The position numbers and the translations under genes were made by a program. DNA of 64,000 bases from Polychytrium aggregatum (taxonomy: Eukaryota; Chytridiomycota; Chytridiomycetes; Polychytriales): NCBI RefSeq assembly GCF_025602895.1, contig NW_026516346.1, forward strand, positions 35,139-99,138, given 5' to 3'. Every line of letters begins with the position of its first letter. Positions within the stretch are counted from its first letter, which is position 1. The notes under the pieces are model-generated. The model was not told the origin of the DNA. It saw only the letters and a program-made list of their open reading frames with translations, and searched no databases. Positions 20,856 through 52,800 of this stretch are shown here, piece by piece.

Positions 20856-23800
20856 TTATTGAGAGTTCCAGCGGCTCTGGGGATGTCTTGATCGACTCAC
20901 ATGGAGCTGCGGTGATATCTGTTTGAGACGGCGCTCCAACTCGCCAAACAGTGATGACTCCATATCGCCACAGTCTAAATGCTGGAGGAGGGGCATGCGG
21001 GGGAGCCCTTCGACCGAGGACAAGTTGGAGCAGGCGCGCAAATCTAGTTTCTCCAGGTTTGTCAACTCAGCGGGAAGGCCTTGGAAGGATCGAACCGAGG
21101 CAGGAAGCTGAAGATGCCGAAGGGCAGGCATGAGGGGGCAGCCGCGAAGGCTTGTTGCATGAACTGGGTGCCTTTGCTGGCAATACTCGAGAGTCTCCAA
21201 GCGAGGCAAGATGTTTGGAAGGCCACGCATGCTGCTGATTGACGGCGGCAGCATCAAATGTCGAAGATTTGGCGTGGGCGGAAAGCCTTCGAGCGATGTG
21301 AGCGAACGGCAATGGATGTAAATCCCCTCAATGAACGGTAGATGTTCTGGGAGGCCATGAAGGCTGGAAAGTACTCCGTCCAAATACAAGATCTTCAGAT
21401 TGGGTGTGTATGGAAAAGCTTCGAGGGATGCAAGTTTACTACATCCGCTGAGGCTCATCCAGTTGAGGGACGGCAGGAAGCTTGGCAGTCCATGAAGACT
21501 GGAAAATGAACCGCTCAGTCTCAGTCTCTTCAGACTTGGCAAACCTTCCAGGGACTCGGGCTCGGATGACGATGGCAAATCAAGCTCAACAAGTGGTTCC
21601 CGATAGGTCGTTGGCATGTCAGGGACCACGAGTTCCATTGTGATTCTTGGCACCCACAACCTTGCAAGCTGAGTAAAACCTTGGAGAGACTCGAGTTTGC
21701 TACATTGTGAGAGATCCATGGTCTCAAGGGACCTCAGGACTTTTGGCAGTCCTTCCAAGCTTCGTATTGATGGAGGCAATGTTAACTTGACCAATTTGGG
21801 CATCTCTGGCATTCCATCGAGCGACAAGAGTGAATGGCACATGAGCTCAAGGCTCTCGAGGGATGGCATGGAGCTTGGCAACCCACACAGGCTGGATATC
21901 AGTCCACCCAGCTTCAATCTCGTCAACTTGGGTGTCTGTGGAAAGCCTTCGAGGGACTCAAGCATCGAGGCCTTCGACAGGTCGAGTTCATCAAGCGAGC
22001 ATAGGCGGGCCATTGGCATTCCAAGGACTTTAAGGCCACTTGGAGGCTTCAGCACCGTCAATTTTGGCAAGTTGAAGAGACCCTTGAGTGATGCAAGTTC
22101 AGTGCACCGCGACAAATCCATCACATCAAGTGAATTCAAGATCTCTGGCAGCTCTTCCAAGGTGGCAATTGACTGAGGCAGGATCAACTTTGTCAGCTTC
22201 GGCATCTCGGACATCCCGTGAAGTGTTTTCAGTTGAGTGCAGCCCTCGATATCGAAGCGGCAAAGCGACGGAAGTATTGAGGGCAATCCTTGGAGACTCC
22301 CAACATTTGTAACGAGTTTGAGGTGCTCGAGCATGGGCATATCGGGCATTCCTCTGAGCGACGTAACGTTTTTTCCCTCAAGCTCCAAATCCTTCATGAA
22401 ATCGAACCTCCGCGGCATTCTGAGGAGAGGTTCGGTGTCTTTGGGGGCCAATAACTTCATTTTGGGCTGCTGCTCAATGCTCAACACAACGGAGCGACGG
22501 CTTTCTCTTCGGCGCCATCTCGAATGTTCCTCATCAAAGTCATACCCATCGGGCTGGATTGCGACGTCCATCAAAGGAGGCTCCCACTTTGCCACCGCGT
22601 TGGGAACCTCCAGCACCGATAGACTGCCGTCGCCACCTTTGTGCTGATATCCGATGTATGTTGCATTTTGGTCGACGCTCAACAGGTGGAGTGTCATGCT
22701 CTTATCGGAACTATCTGCCTTGTGGCGGCTTCCGGTGCTCTGCTGCGGGATCCCTACTTCAGAGGCCGCTGCCCCCAAGAAACGTTCGAGAATCTCGCGC
22801 GACTGTTCCATGACCACTTTGAGGATGTTGCCTGACAAGCTCGCTTCGGAAAGCGCTTCGGTGACGACAAGGGCCAACGATATCCAAAATCCATTCGGGA
22901 CTCGATCGGCGGCAGATACGGGCGGCTCTGATTCGGAACCATACTGCTGCTGGGACGACGCTCGGAACCAAGCCATTTTCTTGGCCATACCCTTCAGATA
23001 GAGCGATTGAGGGAGTTTGATGGCTGTTAAGTTCGCGATCGGAGGCAGACCTCGGATCGATTCCAATTGATCGCACATCCACATGTCCAAGATCTTGAGC
23101 GAGTTTAGTTGGGTCGGGAATCCACTGAGCGTCTGGAGTGAGCCCGGGAGACGGAGAGTCTGCAGCTTGGGCAAGGGCGGGAATCCTGCGAGAGTCTCCA
23201 TTCGGCTGCAGCGACCCATGTCTAGCAGTATAATTTGATCAAAGTATTGATAGAGGCAGTCGATGCTCTGGACAAGTGGAGGCAGGTATACGACTCGGAT
23301 GTTCGGCAATTGTGATAGTCCTTTGAGGCTTTCGAGCTTTGCGCACCCGGACAAATCGAGAGAGGCTAGAGCGGGTAGACGCTCTGGCATTCCCTTGAGG
23401 TCAAAGATGTTGCACCGAAGTGTCAAGGATTCAAGTTGGGGCATCTCTGGACATCCGGTCAAGTCTATGACTCTGCCGACAGAGTCGTCGACGGCAAGAT
23501 CTTTGATACGCCTCATGATTCGTGGCCTGTCCGATAGCATGGAGGCTGCGCAGTTGATCAATCGGAGGTGAGCAAGTCCCTGAAGATTATGCAAGATGCA
23601 CAATTCGTGCGGGAGCAGCTTGGAAACTTGCTCGTCGGTGTGGAGTGGATGGTGTTCGAACCGGACGATGCTGTATGTTGAACGGCAGTCAGTAGCGCCG
23701 CATTTGCCCTTACACCGCAGCTGCCCGTTTTCAACCAGCACAATGGAGCTGTCGAGGATCTTGAACTGATCCTGTGGACTGAGTGAGCGGAAAGCGTCGT

Positions 23801-24347
23801 GGGCATCATCGTGGCATATTTTCCAGTAGCCGACAGTGTCGAAGGGATGGCCGAGACCCAGGCCCTTGCTTCGGGACGTGATGGCTTTGCGGAGGGCCTT
23901 GTGCCGAGGGACAGCCGCCCAGAGCGACAGCTCCTTCTGATATGTCTCGAAACTCGTGGGATATCCGTTCTTGCGTGTGAGGAAGTGGCATATTCCCTGG
24001 AGGATGCTCTTCCGACCTATCGATTTCTCAACCTTGCCAAAGATATCGCGGACTTTCACCCTGTCTCCAAAGTGGGACTGGGCAACTCGAAACCAGGCGT
24101 CCTCAGAAACAAGTGAGAGTACATTCTTGTACTGTGGCGCCAGGTCGGGAAGGAGAGCCAGGGTTCCGCCATCGATGGCAGCGATGAAGGCGCCGTTGCA
24201 GATCAAGATCGTGAGGATGTCATGGCTGGCGAGAGAGGCACAGACACGGCTGGGATGGCCGGAATGAGGGCTGTCCTGTTGTTCGGCTTCGGTAATGGAA
24301 ATTATGCCACCCGTCGGATCGTCCTCCGATGTGCTCTTGTGGGACAT
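20856..24347 (-). CDS. Large leucine-rich-repeat protein, single exon
   Basis: Intronless gene for 1163 aa. The first ~270 residues are unique and contain CGATDC and cysteine pairs. From about residue 290 to the end the protein is built of LRRs, mostly in doublets of 46-48 residues with the rhythm LPSLExLxLSxCSKLxSLxGFP / PNLxxLxLPxSxxSLxGLP. This is the compact type seen after NB-ARC domains in plant resistance proteins and in some bacterial LRR proteins. A non-LRR insertion of about 190 residues (near the AKKMAWFRASSQQQYG stretch) splits the array into two blocks. There is no signal peptide, TM segment, F-box signature or NB domain that I can see, so a cytosolic ligand- or protein-binding role is the only safe inference. 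The ATG at 24347 is preferred; the frame upstream reaches only a TTG. Confidence 0.85.
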   Translation of the reverse strand: MSHKSTSEDDPTGGIISITEAEQQDSPHSGHPSRVCASLASHDILTILICNGAFIAAIDGGTLALLPDLAPQYKNVLSLVSEDAWFRVAQSHFGDRVKVRDIFGKVEKSIGRKSILQGICHFLTRKNGYPTSFETYQKELSLWAAVPRHKALRKAITSRSKGLGLGHPFDTVGYWKICHDDAHDAFRSLSPQDQFKILDSSIVLVENGQLRCKGKCGATDCRSTYSIVRFEHHPLHTDEQVSKLLPHELCILHNLQGLAHLRLINCAASMLSDRPRIMRRIKDLAVDDSVGRVIDLTGCPEMPQLESLTLRCNIFDLKGMPERLPALASLDLSGCAKLESLKGLSQLPNIRVVYLPPLVQSIDCLYQYFDQIILLDMGRCSRMETLAGFPPLPKLQTLRLPGSLQTLSGFPTQLNSLKILDMWMCDQLESIRGLPPIANLTAIKLPQSLYLKGMAKKMAWFRASSQQQYGSESEPPVSAADRVPNGFWISLALVVTEALSEASLSGNILKVVMEQSREILERFLGAAASEVGIPQQSTGSRHKADSSDKSMTLHLLSVDQNATYIGYQHKGGDGSLSVLEVPNAVAKWEPPLMDVAIQPDGYDFDEEHSRWRRRESRRSVVLSIEQQPKMKLLAPKDTEPLLRMPRRFDFMKDLELEGKNVTSLRGMPDMPMLEHLKLVTNVGSLQGLPSILPSLCRFDIEGCTQLKTLHGMSEMPKLTKLILPQSIATLEELPEILNSLDVMDLSRCTELASLKGLFNLPKLTVLKPPSGLKVLGMPMARLCSLDELDLSKASMLESLEGFPQTPKLTRLKLGGLISSLCGLPSSMPSLESLELMCHSLLSLDGMPEMPKLVKLTLPPSIRSLEGLPKVLRSLETMDLSQCSKLESLQGFTQLARLWVPRITMELVVPDMPTTYREPLVELDLPSSSEPESLEGLPSLKRLRLSGSFSSLHGLPSFLPSLNWMSLSGCSKLASLEAFPYTPNLKILYLDGVLSSLHGLPEHLPFIEGIYIHCRSLTSLEGFPPTPNLRHLMLPPSISSMRGLPNILPRLETLEYCQQRHPVHATSLRGCPLMPALRHLQLPASVRSFQGLPAELTNLEKLDLRACSNLSSVEGLPRMPLLQHLDCGDMESSLFGELERRLKQISPQLHVSRSRHPQSRWNSQ

Positions 24348-24499
24348 GCTGAACTGCAGCGGAATCGGGCTGGCGACCAACGATGGAGGAGAGGGCAGCT
24401 GCTTTTCTGGATGCCTGGGCTTGGTGCTTTTATCTTACGTTCGGACATTCGGCTGGCTGGGCCACCCATCGGACATCCCGCCTGGCTGCGCCGGTTGTC

Positions 24500-25020: not shown

Positions 25021-28000
25021 TCACCACCAGATGTAACCCAGCATCCCTCGCTTGCTCTTCTCAATGGCTTTGATCTTGGGGTCGGCTTGGTCATTGCCAT
25101 GTTGGTGAGTCCTCTTGTACCAGCTGAAGGCAGTGTCAACGTCCTTGGTGACGCCAAGACCACTTTCGTAGCAGAGACCAAGGCTGAATTCGGCAGGCGC
25201 ATATCCTTGGTCCGCTGCTTTGGTATACCATTCAACCGCCTTGCGGTAATCTTGGGTAGTTCCCCTGCCCTTCTCGTAGCAAACGCCGAGCATGTGTTGG
25301 GCAGCTGCGTCGCCATGCTCTGCGGCCTTGTTGTACCATTCGACTGCCTTGACGTTGCTCTGAGCAACCCCTTGGCCATTCTCAAAGCAGGAACCGAGCC
25401 TGTATTGCGCAGTGGTGTCGCCTTGATCGGCTGCCTTGGAGCACCACTCGACAGCCTTCTCGTAACTCTGCACGACTCCACGGCCGTGGTAGTAGCAATC
25501 GCCGAGATGGCTCTGGGCAGCGACATGTCCCTGGTCGGCCGCTTCGCTGTACCAGTGAGCAGCGTTGATGATGTTTTGGGACACTCCCTGACCTTCCTCG
25601 AAGCAGCGGCCTAGTTTGTACTGAGCGTCTGCGATTCTCTGGTTGGCCGCCTCTGTGTACCACTTTACGGCCTTGGTGTAATCTTGGTCGATGCCATGCC
25701 CTTCGTAATAGCATTCGCCCAGGCTATACTGAGCAGAGGCATGGCCTTGCTCGGTAGCGCTGGTATACCATTCCACTGCTTTGACATAGTCCTGGGTGAC
25801 TCCTTGGGCGTTCTCAAAGCAAGTACCGAGCGAATATTGCGCTTTTGCGTTGCCGCGCTCAGCCGCCATGGTATACCATTCGATGGCCGCGGCATAGTTG
25901 CGTTCGACGCCCCGACCATAATGATAGCAGAGCCCGAGCATGTACTGGGCACCCGGATTCCCCTGTTCGGCCACCTTTGTGTACAGTCTGGCGGCCTGGA
26001 CGTAGTCTTGATCGACTCCCCGACCGTAAAAATAGCAGGAAGCGAGGCCGTGCTGAGCGGCCATGTTTCCCTGCTTTGCGGATTTTGCGTACCACTCTGC
26101 GGCCTTGGCGTAGTCACGGACAACGCCACGGCCGTGGTGGTAGCATTCGCCAAGATTCCACTGGGCGACGGCGTTTCCTTGATCGGCGGCCTTGGAGTAC
26201 CACTCGGCAGCTTGGCCGTGGTCTTGCACCACTCCTTCTCCCTTTTCGTAGCAAGTGCCAAGGATCAACGAGGCGGCGGCACTTCCCTGGTTGGCGGCTT
26301 TGGTGTACCACTGGACGGCTTTGAGATGATCCTGGGAAGCCCCTTGCCCCATTTTGTAGCAACTGGCCAAGATTAGTTGAGCAGCGATGTGGCCTTGTTC
26401 GGCAGCTTTGGTGTACAGCTCGAGAGCTTTGTTCTCATCTTTGCTGAAGCCGATGCCGTGATGATGGCAAGATCCGAGCTGAAACTCTGCATACATGTTG
26501 TCTTGTTCAGCAGACTTGCGCATCAACTTGATGGCCATCCACGGGTTCTTTGCGAGCCCCCAGCCGTTGAGATAGCAGGACCCTGTCCAGTATTGGCTAT
26601 CGCTGAGGCCCTCGCCGTCGAGCTTTTCAAATAGTTCTACTGCTTTGGCTTGGTTCTGGGCCGTTCCGAAGCCGTGGATCAGACATACGGCCACAAGATG
26701 CCTGGACAGCCTATCCTGCTCCGAGCCGAGCTGGCAGAGCTCAAAGAACCTGCGGGCGACAGGAGAGCTCGAAGACGACAGCTTTCCCTCGACCGCAGCC
26801 ATGCATTCGTCCTCACCAAGAGGAAATTCCGCCGACTTGTTCTCCCGGATGAGTCTGGCGCCCATCATGCGATCCTGCTGAGTGCCTAAACCAAGATAGT
26901 ACATCCAGCCGAGCATGTGGGTTGCGATTGGCCTGAATACTTTGTCGGTGGACTTGCTACTGACTTCATTCCAGTACGAAAAGGCGTCTGTGTGCCGCTG
27001 CGCAACACCGAGCCCTGAGAGATGGAGCCAACCTAGATAGAAGTAGGCCTCGAGGCTCTTGGATTTGGCAAGATTGCGGTAGATCCGGCCGGCGGCATCC
27101 AGCAGAGGTGTCTGTTCCTTGCTGATCGGATCGACCCTGCTCAGTTTGAAGAAATCCTTGATTGCCTTGGGTGGTCTCTTCGCGCGGAGCTCTCCAGCTT
27201 GGGTCAGGAGACGGGCAGCGACTTGATGATGAGCATCCTTGTCGCCAGCCTGATATCGATCTATGAGGAGGAGCGGGATATCGTGATTCACCGGAAGGTC
27301 GTCATCGGCAGAGCCCGAAGGTGGGGGCGGAGGCTGGGGTGTTTCGACGGGCTGGGTTCTCCGCGTGCTGCCATTACGGCTCATACTGCTCAGGATTCTG
27401 GACATGGGGATTGGGGAAGTAACTGGGGAAGCAATTGGCGAGGCGATTGGGGAAGCAATTGGGGAAGCAATCGGCGATGTTGTCGTGAACAGCTTCAGGG
27501 CAGCGGCGATATCGGAGAACCCGGGCCGCTGCGCAGGGTCTTGGTGCCAGCAGCATTCGATCAGCTGCCATACTTCATCCGGGAGGCCCTCGAATCGCCT
27601 GGGTCGGTTGCCACGGATGACTCGAGTGGCAATCTGACCCGACTGCATAAGCTGTCCGTCGACTGTCACCCAGATCTCGCCGTTATTGAGTACTTGGTAC
27701 ATGGTGATGCCGAATGCGTACACGTCCGTCTTCTTGGTCGAGCCTGTAGGGTGGTCGTCGTCGAGCATCTCGGGTGCCAGAAAGTCGGCCGTTCCACAGA
27801 ACAGAGCCGTCGAGTGCGTCCGCGCTGCTGCAACCGTCGCAGTCCGCTGGCGTGCAAGACCAAAGTCTATAATGACGGCGTTGAAATATTTGTCAAGAAG
27901 AATGTTTTGTGCCTTGATATCGCCGTGGACAATGTTTTCATTGTGGAGGTACTCCATGCCAGAGGCAACCTGGCCGAGGAGTCGAAGCTTTTCGGCAAGA

Positions 28001-28386
28001 TCGCGGGGGGCGGCTCGGATGTATTTGCCCAGAGAGCCGTTGGGCATGAGCGGCGAGACCATGAAGGGGCGGATGGCACGACCCTCGGCATCTCGATTGC
28101 AGGCTCCCGAGAGCGGCAGAACGTTGGGATGGCTCAACCGATGCCACACATTGACTTCGCGCTCAAAGCTCGTCTGTTCGTCGCTGTTCAAGGTGGTCTT
28201 CAGCTGTTTGACGGCGACATCCATGTTGCCAAGGCGAGCAGTGTAAACATCGGCAAAGCCTCCGCTGTCGATAGGCTCGGGGGACCGATTCGTGACAGCC
28301 TCGCTGGACAGATACCAGGGAGGCGGATGGATGACACTAGGGCTGGGGCAACTGGCTGCGGCTGCTGTTTCAGTTCGATCGGCCAT
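25021..28386 (-). CDS. Protein kinase with C-terminal Sel1 repeat array
   Basis: Single exon, 1121 aa from the ATG at 28386 (the frame opens further upstream but lacks kinase features). N-terminal kinase domain: glycine loop SGGFADVY, VAVKQL with the ATP-binding Lys, catalytic loop VHGDIKAQNILL (HGD in place of HRD), DFGLAR, and an APE motif (FLAPEML). The closest style is TKL/Dictyostelium-type kinases. A linker repeats SPIA several times. The C-terminal ~720 residues are Sel1-like repeats of 36 residues (pattern AxxxLGxCYxxGxGVxxDYxKAxxWYxKAAxQG), at least 18 by eye, forming a TPR-like superhelix for protein binding. Catalytic residues appear intact despite HGD. Kinase-Sel1 fusions occur as large families in some early-diverging fungi and arbuscular mycorrhizal fungi. 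Partner and pathway are unknown. Confidence 0.9.
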   Translation of the reverse strand: MADRTETAAAASCPSPSVIHPPPWYLSSEAVTNRSPEPIDSGGFADVYTARLGNMDVAVKQLKTTLNSDEQTSFEREVNVWHRLSHPNVLPLSGACNRDAEGRAIRPFMVSPLMPNGSLGKYIRAAPRDLAEKLRLLGQVASGMEYLHNENIVHGDIKAQNILLDKYFNAVIIDFGLARQRTATVAAARTHSTALFCGTADFLAPEMLDDDHPTGSTKKTDVYAFGITMYQVLNNGEIWVTVDGQLMQSGQIATRVIRGNRPRRFEGLPDEVWQLIECCWHQDPAQRPGFSDIAAALKLFTTTSPIASPIASPIASPIASPVTSPIPMSRILSSMSRNGSTRRTQPVETPQPPPPPSGSADDDLPVNHDIPLLLIDRYQAGDKDAHHQVAARLLTQAGELRAKRPPKAIKDFFKLSRVDPISKEQTPLLDAAGRIYRNLAKSKSLEAYFYLGWLHLSGLGVAQRHTDAFSYWNEVSSKSTDKVFRPIATHMLGWMYYLGLGTQQDRMMGARLIRENKSAEFPLGEDECMAAVEGKLSSSSSPVARRFFELCQLGSEQDRLSRHLVAVCLIHGFGTAQNQAKAVELFEKLDGEGLSDSQYWTGSCYLNGWGLAKNPWMAIKLMRKSAEQDNMYAEFQLGSCHHHGIGFSKDENKALELYTKAAEQGHIAAQLILASCYKMGQGASQDHLKAVQWYTKAANQGSAAASLILGTCYEKGEGVVQDHGQAAEWYSKAADQGNAVAQWNLGECYHHGRGVVRDYAKAAEWYAKSAKQGNMAAQHGLASCYFYGRGVDQDYVQAARLYTKVAEQGNPGAQYMLGLCYHYGRGVERNYAAAIEWYTMAAERGNAKAQYSLGTCFENAQGVTQDYVKAVEWYTSATEQGHASAQYSLGECYYEGHGIDQDYTKAVKWYTEAANQRIADAQYKLGRCFEEGQGVSQNIINAAHWYSEAADQGHVAAQSHLGDCYYHGRGVVQSYEKAVEWCSKAADQGDTTAQYRLGSCFENGQGVAQSNVKAVEWYNKAAEHGDAAAQHMLGVCYEKGRGTTQDYRKAVEWYTKAADQGYAPAEFSLGLCYESGLGVTKDVDTAFSWYKRTHQHGNDQADPKIKAIEKSKRGMLGYIWW

Positions 28387-28843
28387 GACTGCCAAACCAA
28401 GCGATGACGAAAGGCAGGACCGTGGTAGATTGAGAGGGCCGCGAGACGACAGGAAAGACCAGAGGCCGCAGGGGCTTTTGGAGTTGATGGCAAGCCTGAG
28501 GAGGCCGGGGGGATGTGCTGGCCACTTCCATCTTTGGCCAGGCGTGGGGGCGTGGGGCTTGTTGGGTGGCGGATGACAGCCGCACACAGGGATTCAGTTG
28601 ATGGGGCCCTCCTCCAACGAGACCAGGCTGGCCCTCCCCGTCCGCCGCATAGCTGGTTGTCGTGAATGGACCTGTGTATTCAAGAACGAAGGCGCCGCCA
28701 CTGGCCATGCATACAAGTTGGCACGGATCCTCTACTTGACCGCGGGCGCAATGGTTGTATAGCAAAATAGAGATTATGGCCTGCCACGAGAGAATGGCCG
28801 AGGCAGGTATGGCGATCGACCAAGTGTCGTTGTCGACGACACT

Positions 28844-31536: not shown

Positions 31537-31682
31537 GACCGCAGGCCGAGGGGCCGACTGTGATGCGGATGTAGTTATGTGAATGCGATGGGGTGTTACA
31601 GACAATCCAATAAAAAACGGGACACCCGGGTTTTTGACCATTCATCGAATATTTTGTTACCCAATGCTATCGCGCGCTGGCC

Positions 31683-32238
31683 ATGACCATTCGCCACACA
31701 ACCACTCTCCAGAGGAAAGTTTCACTCTCACTCTGCCACACTGCCATCCACCGAGCAGGTCTCTCACACAAGAGGGCAACACACCTCTACAAGTCCAAGC
31801 GACTGGATGAGCGAGTGGCACAGTTCAGGGACCAGGTCCGCTCCATCGACCCACGACGATTCGTTTTTGTCGACGAGACAGGGATCAGGAGATCCATTTT
31901 CCCTCTCTACGGATACTCACCGAAGGGTGCTCCGCTTCGCCAGCGCAATCACATGAAGCACAAGTCTGTCTCGGCTGCATTTGCCATCAACCACTCTGGT
32001 GTGCTGCATCGATCGCCGAGGATGGTCAGTGATCTTCACCCCACCTGCCTCGCCCGACTTCAATCCCATCGAGAACTTCTTTGGGATTGTGAAGCATCAG
32101 TACAGGAAGGCAGCAGCGCTGAATGCGTCTGAGGGGTTCAAGGTCGGGATGGTGACCCTGTTTGAGTCTGCCGTGCGGAGGGTGCTTCCAGATGTCTTCC
32201 CACGGCTGATTGAGCGAGCGATGCGCTTCTGGGGTTGA
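31683..32238 (+). pseudogene. DDE transposase relic (Tc1/mariner, DDE_3-like)
   Basis: Two frames are needed. From 31740 the frame reads IHRAGLSHKRATHLYKSK, then RRFVFVDETGIRRS (first catalytic Asp in FVDE) up to AFAINHSGVL near 32004. After a frame change near 32035, TPPASPDFNPIENFFG (the third-acid motif, NPIE) runs to the end VFPRLIERAMRFWG at 32238. The segment that should hold the second catalytic Asp (a LDNAxxH-type motif) is absent: the two halves are joined by a deletion of probably 40-60 codons. The N-terminal helix-turn-helix region is also mostly lost. It cannot encode an active transposase. The C-terminal RLIERAMRFW tail recurs in the relics at about 10945 and 24575. Confidence 0.85.
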
Positions 32239-32490
32239 GTTCCCTCCAATCAAGCCGCCATTTTCACGCTCAAATCCCTGGCTTGAACCTCTCGGCGATT
32301 TTTGAACAGGGTCACTTCCCCAACCAGCCCGCAACGACGGGCTCCTGCTCTCGGGTATAAATGCCACACCTTCGTCCTGCTGCTTTCTTCCCTCATCTCG
32401 CCTTGATCTGATCATCGCGCCATTGTACGATAAAAAAAAGTCTTTGCTCTGACCAGTACCACTGGCAGGCATCCAGCATCCTCTGCCCCC

Positions 32491-34869
32491 ATGCCTCCGA
32501 AGCGCAAGGGTACCGGTGATGGCCAGCCTCAGCCTACCAGGCCCAAGAAAGCCAAGTCACAGTCGGAGCCTGTCTCTGGTTCGTATTCTGACCCCACGCA
32601 TGCTTGGTAGTCTGTTGCTCCGTCGCTCACCACCACTGCTTCTGCAGATCCAATGGATGTCGATCCCACCGAGCCTGGTCCATCTACTTCCTCGAGTACC
32701 GGCAAGCGATGGCGCCAGTGCGATGGCACCGATCACGAACGTTGCAACACCAGCAAGTGTCCAAAATACCGGCCCCTCAAGAGTTCTGTCGTCCCTCTCG
32801 TGGATGGAAGGCCATCCGCCCCTCAGTTCAGCTGCTTCAAGCAGACGATGGATGGCTGTTGTCTCAATCCCGCTCTCCGCGACAAGATCCAGGCCACCGT
32901 CGAGGCCATGACCCAGATCCAGTTCGAGGCATCCAGGCTGCTCAACCTGCACATCCTCCGGTGCATCGAGCAGGATCTTCCCGTCCCCGTCATCTCCAAG
33001 TCCACCCCTGCTTTCATCCGCCAATGCTTCAAGATCGTCCAGGACGGTGCCCTCTCCCGACGCAGGGACAACGAGAAATACAACGAGCATCTGGTCGCTT
33101 CCTTTCGCGACTACCAGACCACTCGGCACGCAGACCTGCCTCCGGCCCCTCGTCTGCCTGATGGTGCTCACAGTCAGCCTCTCACACTGGCTGTCAATGC
33201 CTATGCCACCAACTGCACCACCCACCTCGACCTGGCCTACTGGCGACTCCTTCGCCGCTTCTGCGCTGCCGTCTTCCCAGCCAACAAGCATAAGCACGAA
33301 GCCATCGAGGCCTGTCTCGAGCTCTTCGAGAAACCAGGGCAGACTCCACCCAAGGCCGATCTCGAGTTCCTCTATCCAGACTTTGGCCACGTCCTGGACG
33401 AGTTTCGGTACAGCAGCGACCAGGACCGCTTCCGGGCCCTCCATCGCCTCTCACACCATGTGGGAATCCTCGCCCGAGACAAGATGGTCGACAATGTCCA
33501 CAAGTGGATCGACTGTGACATGCCCGCCCTCCGAGTCACCGAGCTGCAGCGCCAGGCCAAGCTGGACGAGCTCACTACCCGAGGCATTCCCTCCGACGAC
33601 AAGCGATTCACCACGGCCAAGTCTGAGCTCGGCACCACCAAGTCCAAGATCAACAAGCTGGCATCCAGGATCAAGTGGTGCCTCAAGCAGCTCGCTCTCG
33701 ACACTCCTCCGGCCGTGTGCACGATAGGTCCTCTGTGCACTGCCAAGGCCAAGTATGTCAAGATCGACACGGTCACTCTTTGGCAACTCCTGGTCCAACG
33801 AACATCGTCCTTAGGACTCACCAGGGACAAGCTCAAGGATGAAGGTGATGACGGCATCAACAACCAGGATCGTCTCTGGCGCAGTTGCTTCAAGCTGCGT
33901 AGTTCCCTCTTCCAAGAGCGGGACGTGAACAAGAAGCTGTTCAACTACGAGATCAGCACCGATGGCATTGGATGCACCATCGGCCTCGTCAAGTTTGTGC
34001 GTCGAACCGATCACACCGAGACCATCGAGCCTCCTCCGACTGCCGAACAGCGCATCCAGGCCCACATCGGCGACCCAGACCCCGATCGCACCACTTGGAT
34101 TGGCATCGATCCTGGAGTCGGCTCCATCTTCACGGCGGTCATCCAAGCACCGGGCCACCAAGACGAGGTGGTCTCATTCTCGAATGGCCACTACCAGCAC
34201 ATGTGTGGCCATACGTCCAACACCAAGTGGCACAATATCATGAAGTATCGACTCAGCATCGAGACCTGGATGTCGACCACCCCCTCGCCCAAGGTGTCGT
34301 CCTCGGAGGCTTTCAAGGTCCATCTCACCCATGTCCTGCGACCGGAGCTGCGAGTGCAGCTCGACTTCCACCTTGGCAAGAAGGCCCGTCACCATCGATT
34401 CACGGGCCACAAGAGGCGCCAAGTGGCCGTCGACAGGATGTGCAAGGCCGTCCTGAAGCACGCCCCGATACGGACCGATGTGGTGATCGCCTTTGGCAAT
34501 GCATCATGGCGACAGGGCAAGGGCTATGCATCCAGCCCTCGGAGGCAGCGGTTTGCTCGGTACTTTGAGCAATTCGAGCACCACCGACGCCGTCCCAATC
34601 ACCATCATGGAGGCATCAAGGTGGCCTCGACGAACGAGTTCAACACCACCTCGCAGGTGTGCTCCAACTGCCTGGAGCCAGTTCGGTTGGAAGGACTCGA
34701 TGCGCCCAGTGTTGCGAATTCCCACTTTGTCAGGAGCTGCAAGAATCCCAGCTGCCGGACAGTGTGGAATCGCGACGTCAATGCGGCGCGCAACATGATC
34801 ACAGTATGCAGGTCGATTGTGGAGATCGGAGAGCGACCGGCGGTCTTCACTCGGAGGCTGCCAAAGTGA
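32491..34869 (+). CDS. Fanzor: eukaryotic TnpB-like RNA-guided nuclease
   Basis: Two exons, 32491-32578 and 32648-34869 (phase 1, CAG acceptor), encode 769 aa. The N-terminus is basic (PPKRK, RPKKAK), a likely nuclear signal. The first ~500 residues form a helical, Cys/His-containing recognition part. The RuvC domain follows: RuvC-I GIDPGVGS (Asp 517, codon 34108), the RuvC-II region VVIAFGNASW, which lacks the Glu of bacterial TnpB, and 46 residues later a Glu in STNEFNTTSQVC (Glu 693), the relocated position described for Fanzors. A zinc ribbon uses CSNC (701, 704) and CKNPSC (727, 732), then RuvC-III NRDVNAARN (Asp 739). All catalytic and zinc residues are present, so the gene looks functional. 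Fanzors are nucleases guided by an RNA encoded next to the gene; cleavage by this one is inference. Confidence 0.93.
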
Positions 34870-34966
34870 TCTGTTTATTTCTTGTGGCTTTGCTTGACGC
34901 AAGCACAGCACATACTACATGTTCATGGAAACGGCTATATTGTCCCGTTTTTTTCTGAATAAAGTG
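34800..34966 (+). ncRNA. Candidate guide (omega/f) RNA scaffold at the Fanzor 3' end
   Basis: The last 70 bases of the Fanzor ORF and the following ~100 bases up to the right end are the best candidate for the guide-RNA scaffold, by analogy with TnpB elements, where the guide RNA overlaps the ORF end and the right element end. In support, a relic at 47100-47290 (minus strand) keeps a recognisable copy of both the ORF end (GTCGATTGTGGAGA, GGAGAGCGAC-like) and the 3' UTR that follows, although most of the protein-coding part is lost. If correct, the guide would lie just right of 34966. No secondary structure was computed. Confidence 0.28.
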
Positions 34967-35061
34967 TATATGTTAGGTGGGCCGAGATCCGAATCGCACT
35001 CGTCCGGGAGTATGGGCTCGCAGTGCTCAAGCGAGGACGGCGGCAGGGACATTGGTGTGTC

Positions 35062-49803: not shown

Positions 49804-52800
49804 ATGGATCCGCTCAGCTCGGCTCTCGCCAAGATCAACGAGGAGGTGGAGGAGCTGGAGGCCTTTGCCGATGATTTCGGTACGCGCTCAAAAGTTCAGG
49901 CCGTGTCGTAGGCCTTGCCGTGGTGTCTCAGCGCGTGTTTTTTGCAGGGGTGTGCTCTGCTGGGCTCGTCCTTGTATGTTACCCTGGTTCTGCTGTGGTT
50001 AGTGTTGATGACGGCACTTCGGAGCGGCGACACGCCACCGGCATCTTTAACACCCAGACGTGTTTACCGCCGGTCTTAATCAGCCGCAAAGATGGACGCT
50101 ATTCTGAAGGGAGACTTTAAGGACGAGTCGCTTGACGGCCTCGATCTCGCCGCCGAGATCGAGGTCGCGAATACAGAGCCCATCCAGGACCTCATCCAGA
50201 GACAGAAGGATCTCTTGACGCGCAAGGACTCGGGCAACTCCATTCCCTCGACGATTTCGAGCGGATTGGTGTCTCCGATGCCACCTTCCAGAGTGCAGAG
50301 CCAGAGCCAGAGCCAGATCTCTGTGGACATTAATCGGGCTGGATCATCTCCATCGCCGCCAATGCCGGCAAGCAATCGAACCGATGCTCTGGCTCATTCT
50401 CCAGAGATTCCGCTCATGCCGTCAGAGGACAAGATAACAGCAGGCGCCCCGCCAGAGATCAAGCTTCCACCAATCCCATTTGCGACGTGTGAACTTCGCC
50501 ATGGCACGCAGCCATCCGAAAACCAGCCCCAGCCGTGCCCCAAGCCCGTCAAGAAACACGATGCCAACGACTACTCGCGCTTCGCGAAAATTGACGATGC
50601 CCAGAGCGACGATGAGCCAGACCCACGGGCTGCTCGTGTCAACGGCAAGGATTCCATCGGTACCCAGTCCAAGGAGCACAAGGGGCCATCTCAGAAAAAG
50701 AAAAAAAGCAACGTATCGAGGGAAAAGCTCTCTCGCGCAGTCAAGGACTACTGCGAGTCCATCAAGCTGCGAGGCAACAGCCTCTTCCACGCTGGAAAGT
50801 ACATGGATGCTGTCGAAGAGTACACCACCGCCATATCCATCTACCACAATCCCCCTCGGGACCTGTTTCCGCCGCCGCCCGAAAACAGCGGCTCTCTCCT
50901 TGCCGAGCATCGCTGGCTGTACGAGTTGGCGCTTCCGTCCGTGCCTGTCGACCCAGCCCTTCTTACCAACCGGGCGCTATGCTGGATCCGTCTTGGCCGA
51001 TTTGAAGAGGCCATCGACGACCTCTCTGCAGCAATCGAGCGGGACCCGACTTTGATCAAGGCCTACTGGAAGCGCTGCGAAGCCCTCCGACTCTCAGGCC
51101 GAGCCGATGAAGCGCTGGCGGATCTTGAACAGGTGGCCGAGCTGCTTGCACAGCACCAGCACGAGGCCGAGAAAGCGCCCCTCGGCAAGAAACCGGCACC
51201 TCTGGGCATCACCATCGACGATATCGACAGAACCAGGCGCTACATCAAGGAGATTCAGAGATTCACGTACAGCGGTGATCTAGGTCCCGAGCACGAGTCC
51301 AGCATCCGAACCATGCAGGGCTTGCTGCAGCATCTCGCCGAGCAGCTCAAGGACGACCCCGAGAGCGAGCGAGCAGCGGTGACGATTGAGTCCATCCGGA
51401 AGGTCGTTCAGTCCGAGCCGCTCTTCTGCGAGCATTTCCGCCTGGCCAACGGATTCAATCTCTTGCTCTCGCCTCCAGTGCTCTGCGTGGACTCGCTCCC
51501 CTTGATCATGCCCATCTTTGTGGACATTTGCCGCCATTCATTCAACAACCAGCGAATCCTGGGACTGTATATCGAGCCGCTTGTTCAGAGAGTGGCGCGC
51601 GCCCAGCAAGCTGAGACGACGGCACTGTTGATCCTCTTGCTTTCGCAGTGCTCGCAACAGCCCGATTTCGTCGATGCCCTCTATCGCATGAATGCTTCCT
51701 CGACGAGCCAATTTGGCGCACGCCTGATTCGACCGGACCAGTACGACAGCGACATGCTGGATGACTTTCCCGATATTCCCTACTACGGCGTCCGGCTGCT
51801 GACGCACCTGATTCGACATCGGCCCAACGGCCCCCATCTGATTCTCAACAAGTGGAAGGTGTCCGTCCCAGAGATCCTCGGAATGCTCGGTGGCTACATC
51901 CAGAGCGACGCGCTTGCTGTTATCGATCGAGACGACAGCGAAGCCGAGTCGGTGCACATGCTTCCCCATCCCGAGACCCTGGTCTCGGCTGTCTGCGAGT
52001 GCATTCATCAGATTGTCGAGCTCGACAAGTCGAGCCATGCGCAATCTGTGCACAAGCACGGGCAGGGTCTCGTGTACGGGGCTATGGCGGCAACCCAGAA
52101 AACGGCCTCGAGATACATCCAGACCCGCAAGGGCAAGGGCAAGGCCTTAACTGGCGAGCGCGATGCTGCCTTGGATCAACACATCATCCGCCACCACTTG
52201 GGCTGTCTCCTGACGACCGCATGCAACATCTTGACCACGTACAGTCAGGCGCTGCATGATGGCACCAAAAGTAGCGGGCTGGCCAACCAGCTAATCACGC
52301 TCTTGCCCACCGAGTTTCAGATGCCCTCGCTGTTCCTGCTGTCCAAGCTTCTGAGATTCAACCGCGACTCTGTGGGCAAGTGCCTCGACGGCTGGTGGGA
52401 TGAGGTGGCAGACCACATTCAAGAAGCCATGGCCCAAGCCGCCACTTTGACAACCCACAACGACGCAGGGGGAGCTCTGTCTGGATATTCATCTGTTCGG
52501 GAAGAATCGGATCGCTACAGGAACGCAGCAGCACAGTTGTTGGCGGCCTGGCTGATGCTCGACTCACGAAATGCGGACCAGTGGATCGCAGGTGGAGGCG
52601 GTCGCTGGCTGGCGAGCTTGATTGTCCAAGAGGAAGATAGGCGCCGCAATTGGATGGAGAGACACGAGGAGCCGACGAACGATCTGTTTGTGGGAAACTT
52701 GGCTCTGTGTCTCGCAGAATGCACAAAGAAGGGTAAGCATAGAACGAGCGGCTCTCCGCCATTGGTGCGCAAGACTGTGAGGATATAAAGTGTGCAATCG

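Follow-up and report, generated by a model that had tools for sequence, protein, structure and literature searches.

What a transposon gains from carrying an RNA-guided nuclease is the question raised by a locus of the chytrid Polychytrium aggregatum, where a Fanzor gene lies between transposon ends. The biological role of Fanzor is stated to be unknown in the Discussion of PMC10432273. We analysed a stretch of 64,000 nucleotides of contig NW_026516346.1, hereafter the window, together with related copies elsewhere in the genome assembly. The larger finding lies in the element family and the marks at its ends rather than in the single gene: these marks suggest that Fanzor helps the element to copy itself into empty sites, and so bear on the open question of its role. 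For that question the P. aggregatum genome is informative at the level of sequence: natural insertions are numerous, their motif can be predicted, a transposase in almost unchanged form accompanies two types of Fanzor, and the scars predict the place at which an empty site would be cut and repaired.

The Fanzor gene and the element around it

The initial annotation had described a single 769-aa frame with one phase-matched intron, and exactly this frame was recovered: it opens with an ATG at 32491, is interrupted by one GT..AG intron and closes with a stop codon at 34867-34869 (Table 1). An alternative GT..AG pair, 39 nt apart, is also in frame and would give 779 aa. The proposed RuvC aspartates D517 and D739 and the relocated glutamate E693 were likewise present, unchanged in all 28 unique genomic copies read, and D517 with the P-G that follows it, E693 and D739 were invariant in all 6 proteins of an alignment of six related proteins that served as profile A1. 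The Fanzor1 signatures named in PMC10711439 are DPG at RuvC-I, a relocated (alternative) Glu and the RuvC-III Asp. All four cysteines of the annotated C4 zinc ribbon were found as well (C701, C704, C727 and C732), with a match to Pfam PF07282 (Cas12f1-like TNB, E=7e-10).

The plain 769-aa sequence retrieved 4 relatives at E<=0.001 (7,531 scored candidates), and a single-sequence search of the PDB returned no solved chain up to E=0.1. The profile search that the initial annotation had proposed as a check grouped the protein with Fanzor1: A1 matched the solved chains of SpuFz1 (8gkh, E=5e-29) and GtFz1 (9cer, 5.1e-17). In the A1 alignment, D517 (IDPG), E693 (NEF.TS) and D739 (NRD) fell on the SpuFz1 motifs IDPN, DEYKTS and WNRD; the Mg-binding residues of SpuFz1 are D383, N385, E541 and D606 (PMC10432273). 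Based on this profile match and on the aligned, invariant catalytic acids, membership of the 769-aa protein in Fanzor1 is well supported. The frame is not a product of chance, since nonsynonymous changes are depleted among copies (see below) and the family profile retrieves solved Fanzors.

The gene had also been called intact, which held for the reading frame and the catalytic residues but not for an N-terminal motif. Residue 51, the first Cys of a CX2CX4HX7C zinc-knuckle motif (read by eye), is Cys in 27 of the 28 unique copies and Trp in the window copy. The same motif is present in the type-2 Fanzor described below and in P0001 (both by eye, in the A1 alignment). With one Cys missing from the motif, the nuclease activity of the window copy is uncertain.

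Inverted repeats and an alignment of 30 copies delimited an element of 3.37 kb (31599-34966) between TA dinucleotides, with inverted repeats located at 31605-31624 and 34941-34960, bearing out the earlier proposal of a Fanzor in a chytrid transposon. Its terminal inverted repeats and TA duplication are those of the Tc1/mariner-IS630 class, and the left and right repeats differ in sequence. The transposase of the window copy is frameshifted and has lost two internal stretches kept in other copies, so this copy is non-autonomous. A 310-aa transposase frame was found in 8 of the 30 loci read (7 unique sites) and a 331-aa frame in one; the transposase of copy L017 matched PF13358 (DDE_3, E=5e-24), and the spacing of 34 between D and E, counted by eye on translations of copies, is of the DD34E type. 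The element is a cut-and-paste DNA transposon carrying a Fanzor1, a nuclease of the RNA-guided class. Neither Rfam, at its gathering threshold, nor a tRNA scan gave a match in the 64-kb window. Two large host genes lie on the minus strand of the window, one for a leucine-rich-repeat protein (20859-24434) and one for a protein kinase in which 14 Sel1 repeats were matched (25024-28593). A further neighbouring protein, encoded at 50080-52785, shows 100% identity over 98% of its length to a known P. aggregatum protein.

Table 1. Features of the Fanzor-carrying element, in window coordinates
Feature	Position	Strand
T plus TA, predicted target-adjacent motif TTA; left target-site duplication TA at 31597-31598	31596..31598	+
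Left terminal inverted repeat, outer bases variable	31599..31624	+
Remnant of an IS630/Tc1-mariner-type DDE transposase (PF13358)	31683..32238	+
Fanzor exon 1	32491..32578	+
Fanzor intron, 69 nt, GT..AG	32579..32647	+
Fanzor exon 2, with RuvC acids D517, E693 and D739 and zinc ribbon; Cys51 replaced by Trp	32648..34869	+
Predicted omega/reRNA guide scaffold (constrained 3' end of the ORF and conserved 3' region; extent uncertain)	34680..34968	+
Right terminal inverted repeat	34941..34966	+
Right TA target-site duplication	34967..34968	+
Right flank, predicted guide of the window copy (from element layout and SpuFz1 guide length)	34969..34984	+

From position 34680 onward, third codon positions were variable in 7 of 63 cases compared to 220 of 674 before it (p=1.8e-4, for a boundary picked post hoc), and pi was 0.022 over the 99 bases past the stop, compared to 0.069 at third positions and 0.034 in the intron. 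This pattern of constraint fits a predicted guide-RNA scaffold overlapping the end of the ORF, an overlap described for GtFz1 (PMC10432273), and the guide of SpuFz1 is 14-15 nt long (PMC10432273). The fold of the right-end RNA was no better than that of shuffles (z=-0.93).

A family of insertions beside TTA

Across the 64.7-Mb assembly, 403 left-end and 245 right-end matches (<=1 mismatch) were found, compared to 0 for a reversed control; these counts include both haplotypes and short derivatives, and the left-end count also other subfamilies. Identical flanks on two contigs indicated that both haplotypes are present for at least part of the assembly, with a divergence of 1.2-1.9% in the two pairs compared. 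In a protein search in which 60 of 1,253 candidates were scored, all 60 matched at E=0 and 51 lacked a stop; exon 2 was free of stops and frameshifts in 23 of the 28 unique copies taken from this search. Among 30 loci picked by their 3' end, partly the same copies, 2 were without an ORF and 20 of the other 28 were open over the part read. A single host-domesticated Fanzor is ruled out by the 60 scored near-identical copies and by the transposon ends around the copies read.

In 27 Fanzor copies, the window's left out, shared variants stood at 0.28-0.31 of the neutral N/S and singletons at 0.46, in a sample chosen for good matches, which lowers these values. When transposase and Fanzor were compared in a multiple alignment, their shared N/S was equal (0.763 and 0.755), so the constraint is not peculiar to the nuclease. 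An apparently far weaker selection on the transposase proved to be an artefact of pairwise alignment beside deletions.

Short Fanzor-less derivatives (L061-L069), of 275-376 nt and 1.1 kb, retained both ends, and for some Fanzor-less derivatives the same flanks recur around a full copy on a different contig (L126/127 for L062, L004 for L142). The end of contig C52 coincides with the right TA of copy L115, and repeats of this family may be breaking the assembly. Copy L006 differs at its right end, CCCCTGAATACAGTGTA, and a similar sequence flanks L064, so the family may include a third, related type of end.

Ends were read for 74 copies, a non-random set made up of the 30 best Fanzor matches and, for the rest, exact end matches in contig order; L006 was without a right end, and L114/115 stops at a contig end. 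Dropping 7 rows that shared another row's right flank left 65 unique sites. The base before the left TA was T at 63 of these sites, A at one and C at one, compared to a background of 12.9% of the window's TAs with a T in front (p=2e-53). One base further out, A or T stood at 50 of the 65 sites. No mirror preference was seen after the right TA (G 22, C 21, T 11 and A 11 over the 65 sites), and the left-right difference in T preference was marked (p=1e-22). Genome-wide, exact left ends comprised 258 with TTA and 33 with VTA, haplotype duplicates and other subfamilies included. For the five non-T sites of the main family with a right end read, the right TA was normal in L068, L108/109 and L172 and absent in L189 and L190, which are therefore not clean insertions. 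Fanzor-less short copies had T at 7 of 8 unique sites; because they retain the right end, they are not a clean control. As read from these flanks, TTA is likely the target motif, perhaps extended to WTTA. In S. punctatus, a conserved CA precedes the left repeat, and CATA is the motif that was measured there (PMC10432273), an agreement that calibrates the reading of a motif from flanks.

The family also provided a natural exchange of modules. Elements with CAGCC left ends differ in their 3' half and in their Fanzor, a second one sharing 44% amino-acid identity with the first, behind a transposase 95-97% identical to that of the main family (read in part, at 6 of 8 sites). Of 13 CAGCC rows, 9 were classed as type 2, 1 had no match (L186) and 3 stayed unclassified; C63:45903 and C326 are one site, which left 8 unique classified type-2 sites. 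The base before TA was T at 4 of these 8 and A, C, C and G at the others, compared to 63 of 65 in the main family (p=9e-4). With L153, L154, L155 and L159 added, which by eye have a type-2 sequence or right end, T stood at 6 of 12, still different from the main family (p=9e-5) and still above background (p=0.002). On this comparison the near-absolute T appears to track the Fanzor/right-end module more than the transposase; since 6 of 12 exceeds the background, the transposase may add part of the T bias. In L161 (490-3084), the second Fanzor lineage has an 864-aa frame from TTG with two CCHC-like motifs near the N terminus.

Target sequence at the left ends

At 11 of the 65 sites, the left end deviated from the common forms TACAGGCA, TACAGGCG and TACGGGCG, examples being L098 (TACAGTAGATC), L100 (TAGTGGCAA), L003 (TACCGGC) and L009 (TAAGAGC). 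In this first set, 12 of the 18 deviating bases were those found at the same place in the copy's own right flank (permutation mean 4.0, p=5e-5). For a follow-up, 20 further left-end variants were taken without sight of their right flanks, among them L157, picked as a supposed member of another subfamily. The right end was located in 12 of the 20, the other 8 having none in the stretch (L166-L169, L174, L175, L178 and L179), and two of the 12 were partner haplotypes of copies already counted (L142 of L004, L176 of L143). Elsewhere, no right end was recognised in the fetched stretches of L163, L164 and L180, and L140 was without a partner end. At the 10 sites scored, all 15 deviating bases matched the copy's own right flank (expected 3.4; 0 of 20,000 permutations); the right TA of L177 reads CA. 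Both sets combined gave 27 matches in 33 variant left-end bases (expected 7.4; 0 of 20,000 permutations), and the bases that did not match lay in L001 (1), L008 (3), L062 (1 of 2) and L110 (1). Left ends reading CAGCC or CAGTC were assigned to other subfamilies and kept out of the scoring; L153, with a type-2 left end, showed no match to its own right flank.

Of the 17 matched left-end tracts, L177 being left out, 12 ended in at least 2 bases common to target and element (mean 2.5), and the longest scar reached 9 bases past the TA. A changed terminal base was seen in 37 left rows compared to 2 right rows (p=9e-4, taking 102 as the least number of right ends), and the 2 right-end rows are probably one site on two haplotypes. 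On the ends and flanks compared, the left end has been overwritten by target sequence from the TA onward, usually stopping at a short shared stretch, and this was seen on the left only.

The scar was present on both alleles in 6 of 6 verified haplotype pairs (L004/L142, L009/L019, L062/L126, L143/L176, and L141 and L157 with their second copies). For the 25 sites queried (21 + 4), we found no empty allele among the candidates scored (40 of 64, then 6 of 6), although such an allele should have come top of the ranking; the empty target is therefore a reconstruction. Since no examined insertion had an empty partner, the insertions probably predate the haplotype split, and insertions of that age would be expected to show concordant scars under all models. 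By eye, the right flanks of L098/099, L124/125, L138/139 and L010 look like degraded terminal repeats from related elements, which would suit a preference of insertions for the edges of older ones.

Origin of the end marks and comparison with known systems

We consider it probable, with some margin for doubt, that Fanzor cuts empty sites under RNA guidance and that the element enters them during repair, with the inserted copy as template. A guide RNA would be made from the right end and run into the right flank, such that each insertion would program the nuclease against its own uninserted site, TTA followed by the right flank. The nuclease would cut this empty site on the sister chromatid or the homologous chromosome, and repair templated by the inserted copy would write the element into the cut site; insertions beside TTA would be kept and spread, and others would tend to be lost. 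After such a cut, the broken left end would carry TTA and target bases foreign to the element's left end. Full trimming would restore a clean left end, and a few bases shared with the element's left end would allow partial trimming, leaving target bases behind as a repair scar. No scar is expected on the right, because the broken right end would be wholly homologous to the donor. In PMC10432273, the four Fanzors that were assayed cleaved the non-target strand 14-19 bases past the motif, farther out than the longest scar reaches.

Such a mechanism would account for the motif and its one-sidedness, for what the scars contain, how far they reach and on which side they lie, and for the retention of the right end by Fanzor-less copies. 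It draws on the layout of the element, the TTA and the scars, from which guide RNA, cleavage and homing are all inferred. With both alleles scarred in the six pairs, this assembly gives no direct sign of spread between present alleles. More tentatively, and with confidence falling just short of even, Fanzor transposons could be natural eukaryotic RNA-guided gene drives, whose record would be the near-absolute TTA and the target scars at the left end.

A narrower form of the same explanation would have Fanzor act only after excision, cutting the empty site of the sister chromatid and so restoring the donor, with no spread between alleles; we find this form rather doubtful, and its share of probability overlaps with that given to RNA-guided homing as a whole. 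Retention through restoration of the donor copy has been proposed for bacterial TnpB, and it would leave the same TTA footprint. However, Tc1-type excision normally leaves a footprint of its own, which would spoil the target, and the scars hold uninterrupted target sequence from the TA on.

In the main rival account, Fanzor would be a passenger on a transposase that itself prefers TTA in one orientation. Scars would then form at insertion, when the transposase joins the right end only and the left end is sealed through short synthesis on the target and template switching at microhomology. The same scar and the same microhomology would be predicted, the scar on both haplotypes of each pair seen would be explained, type-2 elements do retain some T bias, and the difference between left and right repeats makes an orientation bias possible. 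Yet two separate left-right asymmetries would be required, one for the T bias and one for the scars; a symmetric transposase ought to scar right ends as well, against the 2 rows and 37 counted; and a near-identical transposase next to the other Fanzor goes with T at 4 of 8 sites rather than 63 of 65 (p=9e-4). We therefore regard this account, both of the motif and of the scars, as unlikely. That the scars stem instead from gene conversion between the left end and the degenerate termini that older, related elements left in the right flank, following nested insertion, seems to us highly improbable: the right flanks of L098/099, L124/125 and L138/139 do resemble decayed terminal repeats, but those of L003, L004, L009, L100, L141, L157 and L171 are not repeat-like (all by eye).

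Guided cutting of empty sites, the reading we favour, can be set beside what has been described. The best matches in the open-access literature searched, a scope outside which most subscription papers lie, held no report of homing by Fanzor elements or of repair scars. As far as this literature shows, three things are new: how large the family is in P. aggregatum, the TTA footprint together with the module swap that serves as its control, and the scarring of left ends.

Spu-1 of Spizellomyces punctatus, the element of SpuFz1, is likewise a chytrid Fanzor1 carrier with inverted repeats and TA duplications (PMC10432273, PMC3627910); it too has conserved bases upstream of the left TA and Fanzor-less short derivatives, and the catalytic acids of SpuFz1 align with those found here. 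In contrast, no transposase was found within the Spu-1 repeats, whereas some P. aggregatum copies carry one; the Spu-1 motif is CATA, whereas TTA is read from flanks alone; and P. aggregatum has more copies, with left ends scarred by right-flank sequence. Fanzor1 in Tc/mariner elements with a transposase was described in 2013 (PMC3627910). PGv-1, PUl-1, HMa-1 and others share with the present family a mariner-type transposase, Fanzor1 and TA duplications, and among those elements, too, similar 5' transposase halves are followed by differing 3' portions. That paper compared four related elements, all of them single-copy, whereas P. aggregatum combines in a single genome two Fanzor lineages behind 95-97% identical transposases, at copy numbers from several to many. 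TnpB of IS200/IS605 elements has been presented as a plasmid gene drive in a 2025 preprint (PMC11870625), in which an insertion likewise programs the nuclease against its own empty site and so biases inheritance. That system is bacterial and experimentally shown; the one proposed here is eukaryotic, is associated with another class of transposase, and is deduced from sequence.
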